A DNA stretch of 51,980 nt from Candidatus Schekmanbacteria bacterium. Lineage in GTDB: Bacteria; CSSED10-310; JACPHN01. Position 1 is the stretch's first letter; the number at the start of each line of letters is the position of its first letter. The stretch lies in the NCBI GenBank assembly GCA_016188575.1, contig JACPHN010000088.1:1-51980 (forward strand), in the 5' to 3' direction. The position numbers and the translations under genes were made by a program. Under the pieces are notes generated by a model, which saw nothing but the letters and a program-made list of their open reading frames with translations, was not told the origin of the DNA and made no database searches. Positions 11,392 to 41,550 of this stretch are shown here, one piece after another.

Positions 11392-12360
11392 CTACAACCC
11401 TCCGTTGCGAGTCACCTCACCTGTTTTCGCGATGCTCTCCATGAACAGGTCTTCGAGGGAGCGCGCGCACGGGCCAAGGCCCGAGATGACCAGCCCGCGC
11501 TGCCGCAACGCGTCGATGGCGCGATTCGCCGCGGCCACTCCGCCACTTTCCAGAACGAGCCGCCGCGGGTCCTCCGCCAACGTGACGGCCGCACCGATAT
11601 TCTCCGCGAGCGCAGCGGGGTCGCCGAAGTCGCCGTCAGCGGCGATCCAGTAACGCTGGCTGTCCCGCAGCGTGGAAATGGGCGCCGTCGCCAGCACCTT
11701 CCCCTTGTTGAGGATGGCGACGCGATCGCATACCTGCTCGACGACTTCGAGCTCGTGGGAATTCAGAAACACGGTCTTCCCCTGCGCGCGCAGCCGTCGA
11801 AGGAGCTCACGAAACTCGCGCCTGCCGACGGGGTCGAGGCCGTGGACGGGCTCGTCCAGGAAAAGCACCTCCGGATCGGCCAGAATGGCCTGGGCAAGCG
11901 ATGCTCGCTGGAGCATGCCCTTGGAGAACGTGTCGAGTCGGTTGCGGGCCACGGAGCTCAGCCCGACGGTATCAATCGTCCGCCGCACCGCTTCTGCGAG
12001 CACGGCGCCGCGCAGGCCGGACAAGCCGCCAAACATCCTCAGCATTTCCTCCAGACGCAGGTAGGTGGGGAGCAGCATGCGCTCGGGCATGTAACCGGTG
12101 CGCCGCTTGAGCGCCGGGTTGTCGGGCGCCATGCCGAGAATCCGCACCGAACCCTTGTCCGGCCGCATCAACCCGAGCAGGATCTTGACCGTGGTCGTCT
12201 TGCCCGCCCCGTTTGGGCCGAGAAATCCGAAGATCTCCGCCCGGTTGACCGTAAGGTCGATGCCGGACACGGCACGGATTCGCTCGCGGCGGTGCCAGAC
12301 GCGATAGCTGCGCTCGAGATCGCGGACCTCGATACAGGGAGCGATGCCGGTGGCAGACAT
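11392..12360 (-). CDS. ABC transporter ATP-binding protein (exporter type)
   Basis: A 322-residue nucleotide-binding subunit of the CcmA/NatA class. It has Walker A GPNGAGKTT, a signature loop DTFSKGMLQR, Walker B EVLFLDEP followed by VHGLDPVGRREF (D-loop), and the switch histidine in FLNSHELEVVEQ. The last 80 residues are the C-terminal extension usual for ABC-2 exporter ATPases. The ATG at 12360 overlaps the stop of the upstream gene and follows AGGAG, so the protein is translationally coupled to the M16-permease fusion and is almost certainly its motor. Thirty bases separate its stop from the start of the receiver gene downstream, so the signalling genes may be co-transcribed. Confidence 0.9.
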   Translation of the reverse strand: MSATGIAPCIEVRDLERSYRVWHRRERIRAVSGIDLTVNRAEIFGFLGPNGAGKTTTVKILLGLMRPDKGSVRILGMAPDNPALKRRTGYMPERMLLPTYLRLEEMLRMFGGLSGLRGAVLAEAVRRTIDTVGLSSVARNRLDTFSKGMLQRASLAQAILADPEVLFLDEPVHGLDPVGRREFRELLRRLRAQGKTVFLNSHELEVVEQVCDRVAILNKGKVLATAPISTLRDSQRYWIAADGDFGDPAALAENIGAAVTLAEDPRRLVLESGGVAAANRAIDALRQRGLVISGLGPCARSLEDLFMESIAKTGEVTRNGGL

Positions 12361-12361
12361 G

Positions 12362-14482
12362 TCAGATGCTCCTGATCTCGAGGCGGGAAAAAGACCCGAT
12401 CCCGGCGGCGACGACGGCCGCCGTGAGCGCCACGAGGTGGACGACCGCATCCGCAGTCAGGATGCTCCCCGGATCGGCGCCGAGGACGAACGCGGCGGCC
12501 GCGGAGCGGATCTGGTCGTATTTGGGTAGCGCCCGATACAGTGCGCGCAACCCCGCCTGGCCCACCAGATCGTGAGCGAGCCGCTGGTACAGCTCCTGAG
12601 CCTGGAGTGACGCATTGCCGCCGAGGAAGGAAACGGCGGTCAGCGCCAGGGCGATTCCCGAGCGGCGCGTCAACAGGAAGAACCCCGCGTGTAGCCCCAA
12701 AACGCACGCGAGAATCAGGAGCAGCGCGGGCATGGCCAGCCACAGCCGCCAAGGGTTCGCGCGCACCACCGCGGAGAAGCTCAGATGAACCACCGCGAGC
12801 ACGGTGGCAATCGGCACCGCGCTCAACCCCACGGCAGCGGCGAGCCGTGCGGCCACGAGCTTTCCACGGCTCACCGGGCGAACGAGGTACAGCGTCGCGG
12901 CGCCTTCGTCCAGCCAGCGGCGCAGGCTGACGTGAACGGCGAGCACCAGCAATCCGGGAAGCAGCGCTCCCGCGACGAACAGAGTCGTGCTCAGGACCGC
13001 GCGCAACTCCCAGAGGTGTCGCCCCTGCCCCTGCACCGCGAGCACCGCGTGGTCGAGATTCAGAACGGTGCGGGCGACGTTGAGCAGGTCTTCCGGAGTC
13101 GCCTGCGAGCGCCAGCGATAGACGTCCGCGAAGGCCTCCAGGGGTACTTCGACCAGCAGCGTCGTGGCGGCGACGCTCAATCCGGAGTTGCGCTCCTCGC
13201 TACCCAGGTTTCGGCGGGCGACGTCGAGCTCGGCGGCTGTGGGTGGCGCGCTGCGAGCATCCTCAATGACCGTAACGAGCGCCGATTCGAGCGCGTCGAA
13301 GGCGGCGAAACCGGCGCTGCTCGCGAGCGTCGCGCCAAGCAGGACGGCGGAGCTTTTGGCGTGACGGCCAGGAAAGTAGGGCCCCGTTTCGAGCTTGAAA
13401 CGCCGGTCCTTGTTCTTGGTGAAGCGATGCCCGAGCACCTCGAGCAGAAGATGCAGATGCACGCCGGCCGCAGAAGCCGGCGGCGGTCCGACGAAGCCTA
13501 GCCAGGCTCCGACCTGGTCCTGCGCCTCGATCGGCACCGGCACCACGGAAAACGCCGCCGGAACCGTGAGCGCCTGGGCGATGGGCGCAAGGACGGCGCT
13601 GTCCTGCCGGCGAGGCACGCCCGCGAAGGCACCGGCCACGCGGGCGTGGACCGCATCGCTCGCGAGACCGGACGCCACGATTACGGTCGTGGCCTCCGGG
13701 ACGTAGTGACGGTCATGGAAGGCGGCGGCCGCCGCGGGCTCGGTGTCCGCGACCGTCTGGGCAAATCCTGACGGCCCCCAGCTCGGCGGTGCCTGTCCGA
13801 AGAGGCGCGTAAGCAGCACCTCGGACGCTCGCCCGCCGCGATAGGCCGCGTCGGGAAGGTGTGCCCCCAGCCCGATACGGACCTCTTCACCGACGACGAG
13901 CCGCTCCATCGCGAAGCGCTCGAACGAATCGAAAGACGGCGATAGGACCGCCTGCGCCAGCGCATCCAGCAGGTCGCTCAGCTCGGTATCGCGCACACCG
14001 CGGACAAAATAGGTGGTTGCGTGGAGTCCTGTGGCGCCGTTGAAGAACATGCCCCGCGACCGCAGCCACGCGTCGAGCGTCGAACCGTCGCGCAGCACCG
14101 TTGCCGAGATCACCAGGTGCTCGAGTAGATGCGCCAGCCCGGCCTCGCGCCGCTGCTCGTCGGCGCTCCCCACGGCGACGTGTACCGCGACGTCGACAAA
14201 CTCACCGAGACGCGGGTCCTCGATGGCGCACGCCCTCACACCATTCGCAAGTACGCGACGAGCGAGCTTGGGGACGTCATGCTGGGAAACCGCCCGGGGC
14301 GAAGCCGCGGCCGTGGCGCCCATGTACAGGGCGGCGAGCACGCCGGCAAACACGAGGGTGAGCAGCCTCCCCAGGACTGCATTGGCATGCGGCGAGACCG
14401 CCAGGAGGTCACTGGGCGCCGGCCGAACAGAAGTTACCCTCCCGAAAACAGGACGACAATCCCAACCGTGAGAGAATTTCAT
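12362..14482 (-). CDS. M16 zinc peptidase fused to ABC-2 type permease
   Basis: A 706-residue protein joining two functions. Near residues 35-60 is a hydrophobic segment (LGRLLTLVFAGVLAALYMG). Residues about 70-490 are an M16 (insulinase/PqqF-like) peptidase pair: HLLEH gives H118, E121 and H122, and E199 follows after the expected 76 residues, so the zinc site is complete. From about 495 to the end are about five membrane helices of an ABC-2 permease, with the coupling segment RRWLDEGAATLYLVRPVSR after the first. If the N-terminal segment stays as TM1, the peptidase occupies the periplasmic TM1-TM2 loop where ABC-2 permeases often carry large insertions. The ATPase gene overlaps its end. The ATG at 14482 lies past the hairpin at 14517-14546; a longer frame back to 14542 would run through it. 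The substrate is probably an exported peptide; no precursor gene is seen. Confidence 0.8.
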   Translation of the reverse strand: MKFSHGWDCRPVFGRVTSVRPAPSDLLAVSPHANAVLGRLLTLVFAGVLAALYMGATAAASPRAVSQHDVPKLARRVLANGVRACAIEDPRLGEFVDVAVHVAVGSADEQRREAGLAHLLEHLVISATVLRDGSTLDAWLRSRGMFFNGATGLHATTYFVRGVRDTELSDLLDALAQAVLSPSFDSFERFAMERLVVGEEVRIGLGAHLPDAAYRGGRASEVLLTRLFGQAPPSWGPSGFAQTVADTEPAAAAAFHDRHYVPEATTVIVASGLASDAVHARVAGAFAGVPRRQDSAVLAPIAQALTVPAAFSVVPVPIEAQDQVGAWLGFVGPPPASAAGVHLHLLLEVLGHRFTKNKDRRFKLETGPYFPGRHAKSSAVLLGATLASSAGFAAFDALESALVTVIEDARSAPPTAAELDVARRNLGSEERNSGLSVAATTLLVEVPLEAFADVYRWRSQATPEDLLNVARTVLNLDHAVLAVQGQGRHLWELRAVLSTTLFVAGALLPGLLVLAVHVSLRRWLDEGAATLYLVRPVSRGKLVAARLAAAVGLSAVPIATVLAVVHLSFSAVVRANPWRLWLAMPALLLILACVLGLHAGFFLLTRRSGIALALTAVSFLGGNASLQAQELYQRLAHDLVGQAGLRALYRALPKYDQIRSAAAAFVLGADPGSILTADAVVHLVALTAAVVAAGIGSFSRLEIRSI

Positions 14483-14516
14483 GCTTGCGTCCACCGTGAC
14501 CGAGAGCGCAACCAAC

Positions 14517-14546
14517 ATGGATGCCGGCCCAGAGGCCGGCATCCAT
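14517..14546 (-). terminator. Strong hairpin between the DUF35 and M16-permease genes
   Basis: A perfect 13-base stem (arms ATGGATGCCGGCC and GGCCGGCATCCAT) with loop CAGA. It lies downstream of the DUF35-SCP2 gene on the minus strand and just upstream of the next start. There is no T-run, so it may be an attenuating or RNA-stabilising structure, or a factor-dependent terminator. Confidence 0.6.
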
Positions 14547-39389: not shown

Positions 39390-39770
39390 ATGTCCCCTGA
39401 TCGATCAAGCCCCGCGGCGCCCTCCGGAGCCGAGTTTTGCGTCGTGCTCGTGACCGCGCCCGACGCCGCAATCGCCGCCACGCTCGGCCGTATCCTCGTA
39501 GAGTCCCGTACCGCTGCGTGCGCCAATATCGTTCCCGGGGTTCGGTCGCTGTACGCGTGGCAAGGCGAAATCTGTGACGACGCTGAAGTCCTGCTCTTCA
39601 TCAAGACACGGCGGAACCTTTTTCCCGCTGTCGTGTCCCTAGTACGAGAGAACCATCCGTACGTGACACCTGAGATCATTGCGTTGCCCATCGTGAGCGG
39701 CAGCCAGGCTTACCTCGAGTGGATCGAGGCCACCACAAAGGAGAGTGCCAATGGCGAAGATGCCTCGTAA
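39390..39770 (+). CDS. cutA: Divalent-cation tolerance protein CutA
   Basis: A 126-residue protein of the CutA1 family, a trimeric ferredoxin-like fold. Characteristic segments are CVVLVTAPDAAIAATLGRIL, RTAACANIVPGVRSLYAWQG and VRENHPYVTPEIIALPI, ending with YLEWIEATT. It is linked to copper tolerance in some bacteria, but its molecular role remains unclear. The ATG at 39390 is chosen over a GTG at 39384. Its 3' end overlaps the subtilase start by 20 bases, so the two are co-translated. Confidence 0.9.
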   Translation: MSPDRSSPAAPSGAEFCVVLVTAPDAAIAATLGRILVESRTAACANIVPGVRSLYAWQGEICDDAEVLLFIKTRRNLFPAVVSLVRENHPYVTPEIIALPIVSGSQAYLEWIEATTKESANGEDAS

Positions 39771-41550
39771 AGCGCAAACGGTAGTCGGGGTAGCTGCTGC
39801 CGTGGCGGTAGCTACGCTGTTCCTTGCGCCCGCAACCCGTTCCGCCGCGGAAGAGACCGCGCCGTTCGCTGAGATCGTCGTCAATCTCGAAGACGACATC
39901 ACCCCGGAGGCACTTGCCGAGCTGTCCGCCAGATACGGCCTGGCGCTGGTCCCCAACAGCGCCTTTTCTGACCGCGAAAAGCTGATGCGCATGCCGGCGG
40001 TCGTCGATGTAGAGGACTTGACCGGCTATCTGGACATGCTCACAGCCGATCCGCGCATCGAATATGCGGAACCTAACTATCTGTTCTCTGCGGACTTCGT
40101 GCCGGACGACCCGATGTATGGCCAGCAGTGGCACCTCAAGATGATCGATCTGGAGAAGGCGTGGGATTATGACCGCGGCGATGGCGTTGTTGTCGCCGTG
40201 ATCGATACCGGCGTCGCCTACGAAAAGCACGACCGCCAGGGCAACGTCTTCAGCCAGGTCCCGGATCTTTCCGCCACTCGTTTCGTCCCCGGTTATGACT
40301 TCGTGCACGACGATCCGCACCCGGTGGACGATAACGGCCACGGCACCCACGTGGCCGGCACGATCGCTCAGTCCACCAACAATGGCGTCGGCACGGCAGG
40401 CATCGCCTTCGGCGCCCGCATCATGCCGATCAAGGTCCTCAGCGCGCAGGGATTCGGCAACATCGCCGACATTGCGGAGGGCATTACCTGGGCGGCCGAT
40501 CATGGCGCCCAGGTCATCAACATGAGTCTCGGTGGCGCGATGCCCGCCCTGACTCTGGCCAAAGCCTGTGCCTATGCGAAGAAGAAGGGCGTGACGCTGG
40601 CGTGTGCTGCCGGGAACTCGGCGACGTCGCGGCCGCACTTCCCCGCGGGTTTCGATTCTTGCATCGCGGTCGCCGCCGTGGGACCGACCGGAAAGCTCGC
40701 ACCCTATTCGAACTATGGGAACTGGATTTCCGTGGCTGCGCCGGGCGGCGACAAGTCGGCGCGTGAAGAGGATGGCGTGCTGCAGAACACCATCGAACGC
40801 ATGAATCCGGCGAAAAACGGGTATTTTTGGTTCCAGGGCACGTCGATGGCCTCTCCCCACGTCGCGGGGGCCGCGGCCTTGATCATCTCGCGTGGCGTCA
40901 CGGCACCAGATGACGTCGAGCGGGTGCTGAAGCAGTCCGCCTCTCCGGAGAGCGGCGCGCAGAAAAACATGGGCGCCGGGATCATAAACGTTGGCAGAGC
41001 GGTCACCATCGCGGGCAAGACCCACTTTGAGCGCGGCATGTACAAAGGGATGCTGGCGGTCGGACTGGTGCTGATGCTGGTGCGCGCCGCCCGGAGACGG
41101 TCCGAACGCGTCGAAGGGCTGCGGTCAGGAGTGTTCTGGTCCACGCTGCTCGTCGTCGGTAGCGGCTTGTTCTTTCTCTCGCTCTTGCCGACGGGTTGGT
41201 GGCCAGGTTGGCTGAGCGCGCTGGCCCGCAGCTCCGCCGTCGACTGGCTCGGCGCGCTGACCGCCGCCACCCAGGCCGATCCCTTCCTCCATAGCGCTCT
41301 CCTTCCCCTCCTTGCGGTCAGCTTGCTGCTCTCGGTGCAGCGCCTCAGACCCATGCTGTTGGCCTTTGTTCTCGGCTATGCCGCGCACTTGCTGGGTGAC
41401 GCCTTTGCCACGTGCTACAGCCCCGTGTCGCTCATCCCCGGAGATTTCTGGCTCGACAAGGCCTGGCTCGCGATCAACGGCGTCGTCGCTTTTGTCCTTG
41501 CCCTGCTCATGAGCCGCCGCGGCGGCACGGCGTCGTGGAGGATGTGGTGA
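39751..41550 (+). CDS. Subtilisin-like serine protease (S8) with C-terminal multi-pass membrane domain
   Basis: A 599-residue protein. A signal peptide (VVGVAAAVAVATLFLAPATR) and an I9-type propeptide (EIVVNLEDDITPEALAEL ... RIEYAEPNYLF) precede the catalytic domain, with D152 (VAVIDTGVA), H197 (DNGHGTHVAGT), oxyanion N289 (CAAGNS) and S365 (FQGTSMASPHVAG), all intact. From about residue 430 the chain has four or five membrane helices. The last part, with FLHSALLPLLAVSLLL and AFVLGYAAHLLGDAF, resembles YdjM/DUF457 membrane hydrolases (HS...H..D pattern), an unusual tail for a subtilase. The protease domain would lie outside the inner membrane, tethered to it. ATG 39751 has AAAGGAGAG upstream. 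Confidence 0.85.
   Translation: MAKMPRKAQTVVGVAAAVAVATLFLAPATRSAAEETAPFAEIVVNLEDDITPEALAELSARYGLALVPNSAFSDREKLMRMPAVVDVEDLTGYLDMLTADPRIEYAEPNYLFSADFVPDDPMYGQQWHLKMIDLEKAWDYDRGDGVVVAVIDTGVAYEKHDRQGNVFSQVPDLSATRFVPGYDFVHDDPHPVDDNGHGTHVAGTIAQSTNNGVGTAGIAFGARIMPIKVLSAQGFGNIADIAEGITWAADHGAQVINMSLGGAMPALTLAKACAYAKKKGVTLACAAGNSATSRPHFPAGFDSCIAVAAVGPTGKLAPYSNYGNWISVAAPGGDKSAREEDGVLQNTIERMNPAKNGYFWFQGTSMASPHVAGAAALIISRGVTAPDDVERVLKQSASPESGAQKNMGAGIINVGRAVTIAGKTHFERGMYKGMLAVGLVLMLVRAARRRSERVEGLRSGVFWSTLLVVGSGLFFLSLLPTGWWPGWLSALARSSAVDWLGALTAATQADPFLHSALLPLLAVSLLLSVQRLRPMLLAFVLGYAAHLLGDAFATCYSPVSLIPGDFWLDKAWLAINGVVAFVLALLMSRRGGTASWRMW

Follow-up and report, generated by a model that had tools for sequence, protein, structure and literature searches.

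The clam shell of M16 peptidases normally consists of two subunits or of two tandem halves. In the cacaoidin cluster, an M16 peptidase and an ABC exporter are said to share one peptide, and the ABC system NosDFY is thought to act on a periplasmic partner, NosD. M16 enzymes require two halves, which alternate between open and closed states, and homodimeric M16B enzymes such as BHP are known (PMC12731061). In most members of the family an R/Y pair completes the active site (PMC12731061). The M16 peptidase AlbE/AlbF and the subtilosin ABC transporter are believed to work on a common peptide (PMC12731061). Pilin is described as requiring PilG, PilH and PilI to cross the inner membrane (PMC3724824). 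Transporter, transmembrane or fusion M16 proteins are not mentioned in a 2025 review of M16 peptidases (PMC12731061), and our literature searches turned up no report of a protein that contains both M16 and ABC-2 parts.

Here we describe a gene in which sequence comparisons support the union of an M16 peptidase half and an ABC-2 permease core within one protein, seen in one draft genome (275 contigs). An earlier note on the window (the whole stretch of DNA that was analysed, 51,980 nucleotides) had reported a single open frame without giving a strand; we recovered this frame, of 706 residues, running from 14482 down to 12362 on the minus strand. No other frame in this region shows a coding-like signal. 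The codon signal is even from about residue 60 to the C-terminal end, junction included, and is unbroken near residue 490. Rows of the M16 alignment stop at about residues 485-490 and the permease match begins at about 513. Coding signal is absent from the first 20-25 codons, and the start of the gene is therefore uncertain (ATG at 14482, ATG at 14542 or a later non-ATG codon). A 45-codon frame on the minus strand, MDAGLWAGIHVGCALGHGGRKHEILSRLGLSSCFREGNFCSAGAQ (window 14409-14546), and the beginning of the fusion gene overlap in different reading frames. The small frame has an AGGAG 8 bases upstream, a promoter-like site at 14590-14561 and a neutral codon score. It may encode a leader or a small peptide, or have arisen by chance.

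Features of the peptidase-permease locus (window coordinates)
Feature	Position	Strand	Basis or remark
M16 peptidase / ABC-2 permease fusion	12362..14482	minus	706 aa; alternative ATG at 14542
N-terminal hydrophobic helix, residues 36-58	14309..14377	minus	hydropathy; model helix 31-58; position of M16 signal sequence
Complete M16 half, two domains, residues 62-486	13025..14299	minus	Pfam, model, 5euf match
HLLEH zinc motif, residues 118-122	14117..14131	minus	H118, E121 and H122 near-invariant in alignment A5
E200, distal zinc-ligand glutamate by alignment	13883..13885	minus	conserved column
ABC-2 permease core, residues 494-706, five helices (TM2-TM6 equivalents)	12365..13003	minus	independent profile, NosY fold
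Coupling segment RRWLDEGAATLYLVRPVSR, residues 521-539	12866..12922	minus	P536 and R539 near-invariant in the permease family
ABC ATPase, 322 aa, NosF/NatA type	11392..12360	minus	ABC_tran (Pfam) E 6.6e-25; NosF E 4.5e-45

The peptidase half is readily recognised. Pfam places Peptidase_M16 at residues 93-201 (E 7e-15) and M16_C at residues 253-426 (E 1.5e-7), both above their cut-offs. The zinc site had been called complete, and our alignment agrees: H118, E121, H122 and E200 all fall in conserved columns, E200 lying 78 residues past H122. The columns that usually hold the R/Y pair, which may belong to this half or to its partner, are occupied by K363 and F370, with Y369 one residue early, in a loop modelled at low confidence. 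A model built from M16 relatives gave pLDDT values mostly between 80 and 95 across the peptidase, with the weak loop at residues 360-375. Its best PDB matches are M16B subunits (5euf, 3ami, 4nnz and 3eoq), and comparison with 5euf, an M16 protease of H. pylori, yielded E 2.5e-25 and TMt 0.84. No partner gene for a second M16 half was found beside the fusion gene.

The C-terminal part was identified by way of its relatives. The earlier note's count of about five membrane helices after the peptidase is borne out by hydrophobic peaks at residues 500-518, 547-565, 586-604, about 607-625 and 674-692, and the coupling segment that it proposed is present. Searched alone against Pfam and NCBIfam, the segment matched no family significantly, ABC2_membrane_2 falling below the cut-off; a canonical relative (L034) likewise lies just under the Pfam cut-off for that model. 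A single-sequence search matched ordinary permeases beside NatA-type ATPases (E 3e-4 to 1e-3). The relatives so collected are permeases of about 255 residues, for which the Pfam model is ABC2_membrane_2 and the nearest solved member is NosY. The value of E 1e-69 that a first profile, A1, gave for the permease segment was discarded as circular because the fusion protein itself was in A1, and an independent profile of 28 canonical permeases, with the fusion protein left out, was substituted. This profile matches residues 513-702 of the fusion with E 3.7e-9, about 770 other frames having been compared, and reported none of 500 shuffles. Other ABC-2 permeases fetched from the source genome score worse on it (1.9e-7 to 3.4e-5).

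Mixed alignments of M16 proteins and permeases were misaligned; peptidase and permease were therefore modelled separately, and the two halves were never folded together in one model. The first model left the permease part weak, and the second left the peptidase part unfolded. In the model built from permease relatives, pLDDT is 82-91 across most of residues 540-690, and all 49 of its 49 best fold matches are ABC-2 class transporters. NosY heads these matches (Z 13.3, 213 residues, rmsd 4.4), nearly equalled by PmtCD and the ABCA/ABCG exporters. Since a Z of about 13 is possible for unrelated helical bundles, it is the sequence profile that carries the identity of the permease. Profile and predicted fold agree, and together they identify the C-terminal segment as an ABC-2 permease of the NosY/PilI type. 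Alignment A9 contained no conserved stretch that could be used.

The N-terminal helix that had been noted was evident as a hydrophobic peak at residues 36-54. The accompanying proposal, that this helix is TM1 of the permease and that the peptidase fills the loop between TM1 and TM2, was not supported, for an elbow and TM1 are undetectable and the helix lies where M16 proteins carry their signal. The family alignment shows that canonical permeases begin with an amphipathic elbow and TM1. We found no counterpart of either in the fusion chain, where the match to the independent profile starts at profile position 67. Between the end of the M16 half (about residue 486) and TM2 (about residue 500) there is space for a short linker only, and no remnant of TM1 or the elbow was found in it. 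The distance from the helix to the HxxEH motif is 63 residues; among 24 other M16 frames that have a hydrophobic segment near the N terminus it ranges from 45 to 81, with a median of about 55. In sequence terms the helix looks like an M16 export signal, and an exported peptidase probably replaced TM1, as opposed to having entered the loop between TM1 and TM2. The helix may either be removed by cleavage, so that five helices remain, or stay as a signal anchor that serves as a surrogate TM1. VIA rows starting at residues 49-55 are no proof of TM1-like packing, their ranges listing first and last residues only. The location of the peptidase outside the cytoplasm, also proposed before, accords with the predicted topology of five helices, a positive coupling loop and an internal C terminus. 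Positive charge is found in the loop after TM2 and in the C-terminal tail, consistent with this arrangement.

The ATPase gene does not overlap the end of the permease, as had been thought, and instead abuts it: the stop codon occupies 12364-12362 and the ATPase ATG is at 12360, one base apart. An AGGAG at 12373-12369, within the end of the permease, precedes the ATPase start. Among the fetched loci, this ATPase best matches those that accompany the canonical permeases (35-43% identity), and NosF is among the nearest solved ATPases. PADLOC returned no match for the peptidase-permease and only generic matches for the ATPase. Upstream of the locus lie a thiolase and a small partner of it, and downstream lie response regulators. 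The flanking genes examined include no natural-product enzymes, and neither a peptide substrate gene nor a natural-product cluster was identified at the locus. Elsewhere in the window, a subtilase with a DUF5942 domain lies at 39745-41547.

How does this locus compare with systems already described? Peptidase-permease fusions are an already known kind, since the source genome itself has an ABC-2 permease with an M1 aminopeptidase. This protein (L103, contig 260, 944-4534) is 1196 aa long, carries the aminopeptidase at its C terminus and has its own ATPase gene. ABC-2/M1 fusions resemble the present protein in uniting a zinc peptidase with an ABC-2 permease on a single chain, with a NatA-like ATPase adjoining. 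They differ in that L103 has a C-terminal HEXXH peptidase and a long, many-helix permease, whereas here an HXXEH M16 peptidase comes first and is followed by a five-helix core. In the present fusion, the domains that Pfam found are all M16, with no M1 peptidase domain among them. An arrangement in which an M16 peptidase precedes a compact permease appears to be new.

The closest permease family by profile, and the closest ATPases, belong to canonical loci of the PilGHI type (L034, L035, L038, L062, L077 and L081). In these loci the permease is followed, or in L081 preceded, by a TPR protein, and a prepilin peptidase adjoins L038; we take this to be the PilGHI (pilH/pilI) arrangement of Myxococcus. 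The PilGHI-like operon of an ATPase, a permease of about 255 aa and a TPR protein is widespread, the permease profile matching 85 of 193 sampled genomes. Unlike the present fusion, PilGHI-type permeases are about 255 aa long, have an elbow and TM1 and lack a peptidase. Profile searches of the source genome revealed neither a canonical permease of this family nor a TPR partner (profile A10, which is strong in G002, G007, G136 and G182), and therefore the fusion does not simply belong to a pilus transporter. NosFY and NosDFY share with it the permease fold (Z 13.3) and similarity of the ATPase (E 4.5e-45), but NosY has no peptidase, and NosD, the periplasmic partner in NosDFY, is a separate protein. 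Systems of the AlbE/AlbF type differ likewise, having separate genes, a heterodimeric M16 enzyme and a natural-product cluster.

We searched for further fusions from both sides. Sensitive searches from the M16 side covered a broad sample of 386 genomes, 195 genomes of one phylum, 387 genomes drawn around another centre and 12 genomes, and returned stand-alone M16 proteins only; the sets of 386, 195 and 387 partly overlap, and the sample took in seven other genomes from the source phylum. From the permease side, no other permease joined to an M16 peptidase was found in 386 and 193 genomes, and plasmids held stand-alone M16 proteins only. Two GTDB scans with short exact peptides, a method that we estimate to be insensitive below about 80% identity, found nothing close, one of them returning only two distant M16 loci. 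Thus the search for the same domain order suggested by the earlier note found no second fused protein in the sampled genomes, in which the homologues stand alone. Judged by these searches, the fusion is likely rare, and because no second fused protein was found there is no sign that it is conserved.

Several loci were considered as fusion candidates and rejected. L039 and L044 consist of an ATPase and an ordinary permease, in L081 a TPR gene precedes a canonical permease, the M16 proteins of L106 to L109 are soluble, and L003 is an M16 protein with different membrane helices. The last of these, at 706-2769 of contig 76 of the source genome, is a 687-aa M16 protein whose peptidase is followed by three membrane helices and a soluble C-terminal part; its R/Y pair is present.

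The explanation that we favour, though at no better than even confidence, is that a secreted-type M16 half was fused in frame, with clean domain borders, to a NosY/PilI-type core lacking the elbow and TM1, giving a membrane dimer that exports or extracts a substrate and cleaves it. The product would reside in the inner membrane with its peptidase in the periplasm. It would form a dimer by way of the permease, in the manner of ABC-2 transporters, and be joined by two copies of the ATPase, so placed that the two M16 halves would face each other above the transporter exit. ATP-driven motion would then be mechanically tied to peptide cleavage. The likeliest job would be to export or extract a peptide or membrane component and to cut it at the outer face. 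The existence of homodimeric M16 enzymes, and the need for two halves, suit an ABC-2 dimer. Caution is due on the activity of such a dimer because the R/Y pair is displaced, and two copies may make a poor enzyme. A more elaborate form, which we put forward tentatively, is an ATP-powered peptidasome in which the ATPase would open an M16 clam shell mounted on the permease dimer, and a peptide would be threaded out, or pulled from the membrane, and cut. We know of no ABC protein with an M16 chamber.

Other explanations were weighed against export or extraction coupled to cleavage. One, which we consider rather unlikely, is that a NosDFY-like ABC module exports nothing and spends ATP on moving the M16 clam shell between its open and closed states, acting by mechanotransmission as an ATP-powered periplasmic peptidase. 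NosY is the nearest solved permease and NosF is among the nearest solved ATPases, and NosD is itself periplasmic; however, PmtCD and the ABCA/ABCG exporters match nearly as well as NosY, and a common fold proves no function. The cycling of M16 enzymes between open and closed halves (PMC12731061) would also fit such a machine. Less probable still is simple anchoring, where the permease part would merely hold the peptidase near the membrane or would be a decayed transporter. An undetectable elbow and TM1, and the occurrence in the same genome of another M16 protein with a membrane C-terminal part (L003), accord with anchoring, but the near-invariant P and R are kept in the coupling segment, and the ATPase gene that directly follows the permease is complete. 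An assembly artefact, or a very recent deletion that joined two neighbouring genes, is the most doubtful of all: it would account for the absence of a fused homologue from all searches and might be expected of a draft of 275 contigs, but the frame is continuous, its codon signal is even, its junction falls at domain borders with no remnant of TM1 or the elbow between the parts, and its spacing to the ATPase is operon-like.

M16 enzymes open and close two halves, and ABC-2 transporters move two halves by means of ATP; the fusion would unite both. If it is built as we propose, the domain motion in M16 catalysis could be driven by ATP and measured, and the coupling between export and processing could be viewed directly. 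With it, the few permease-peptidase fusions known so far would also gain a second peptidase family.
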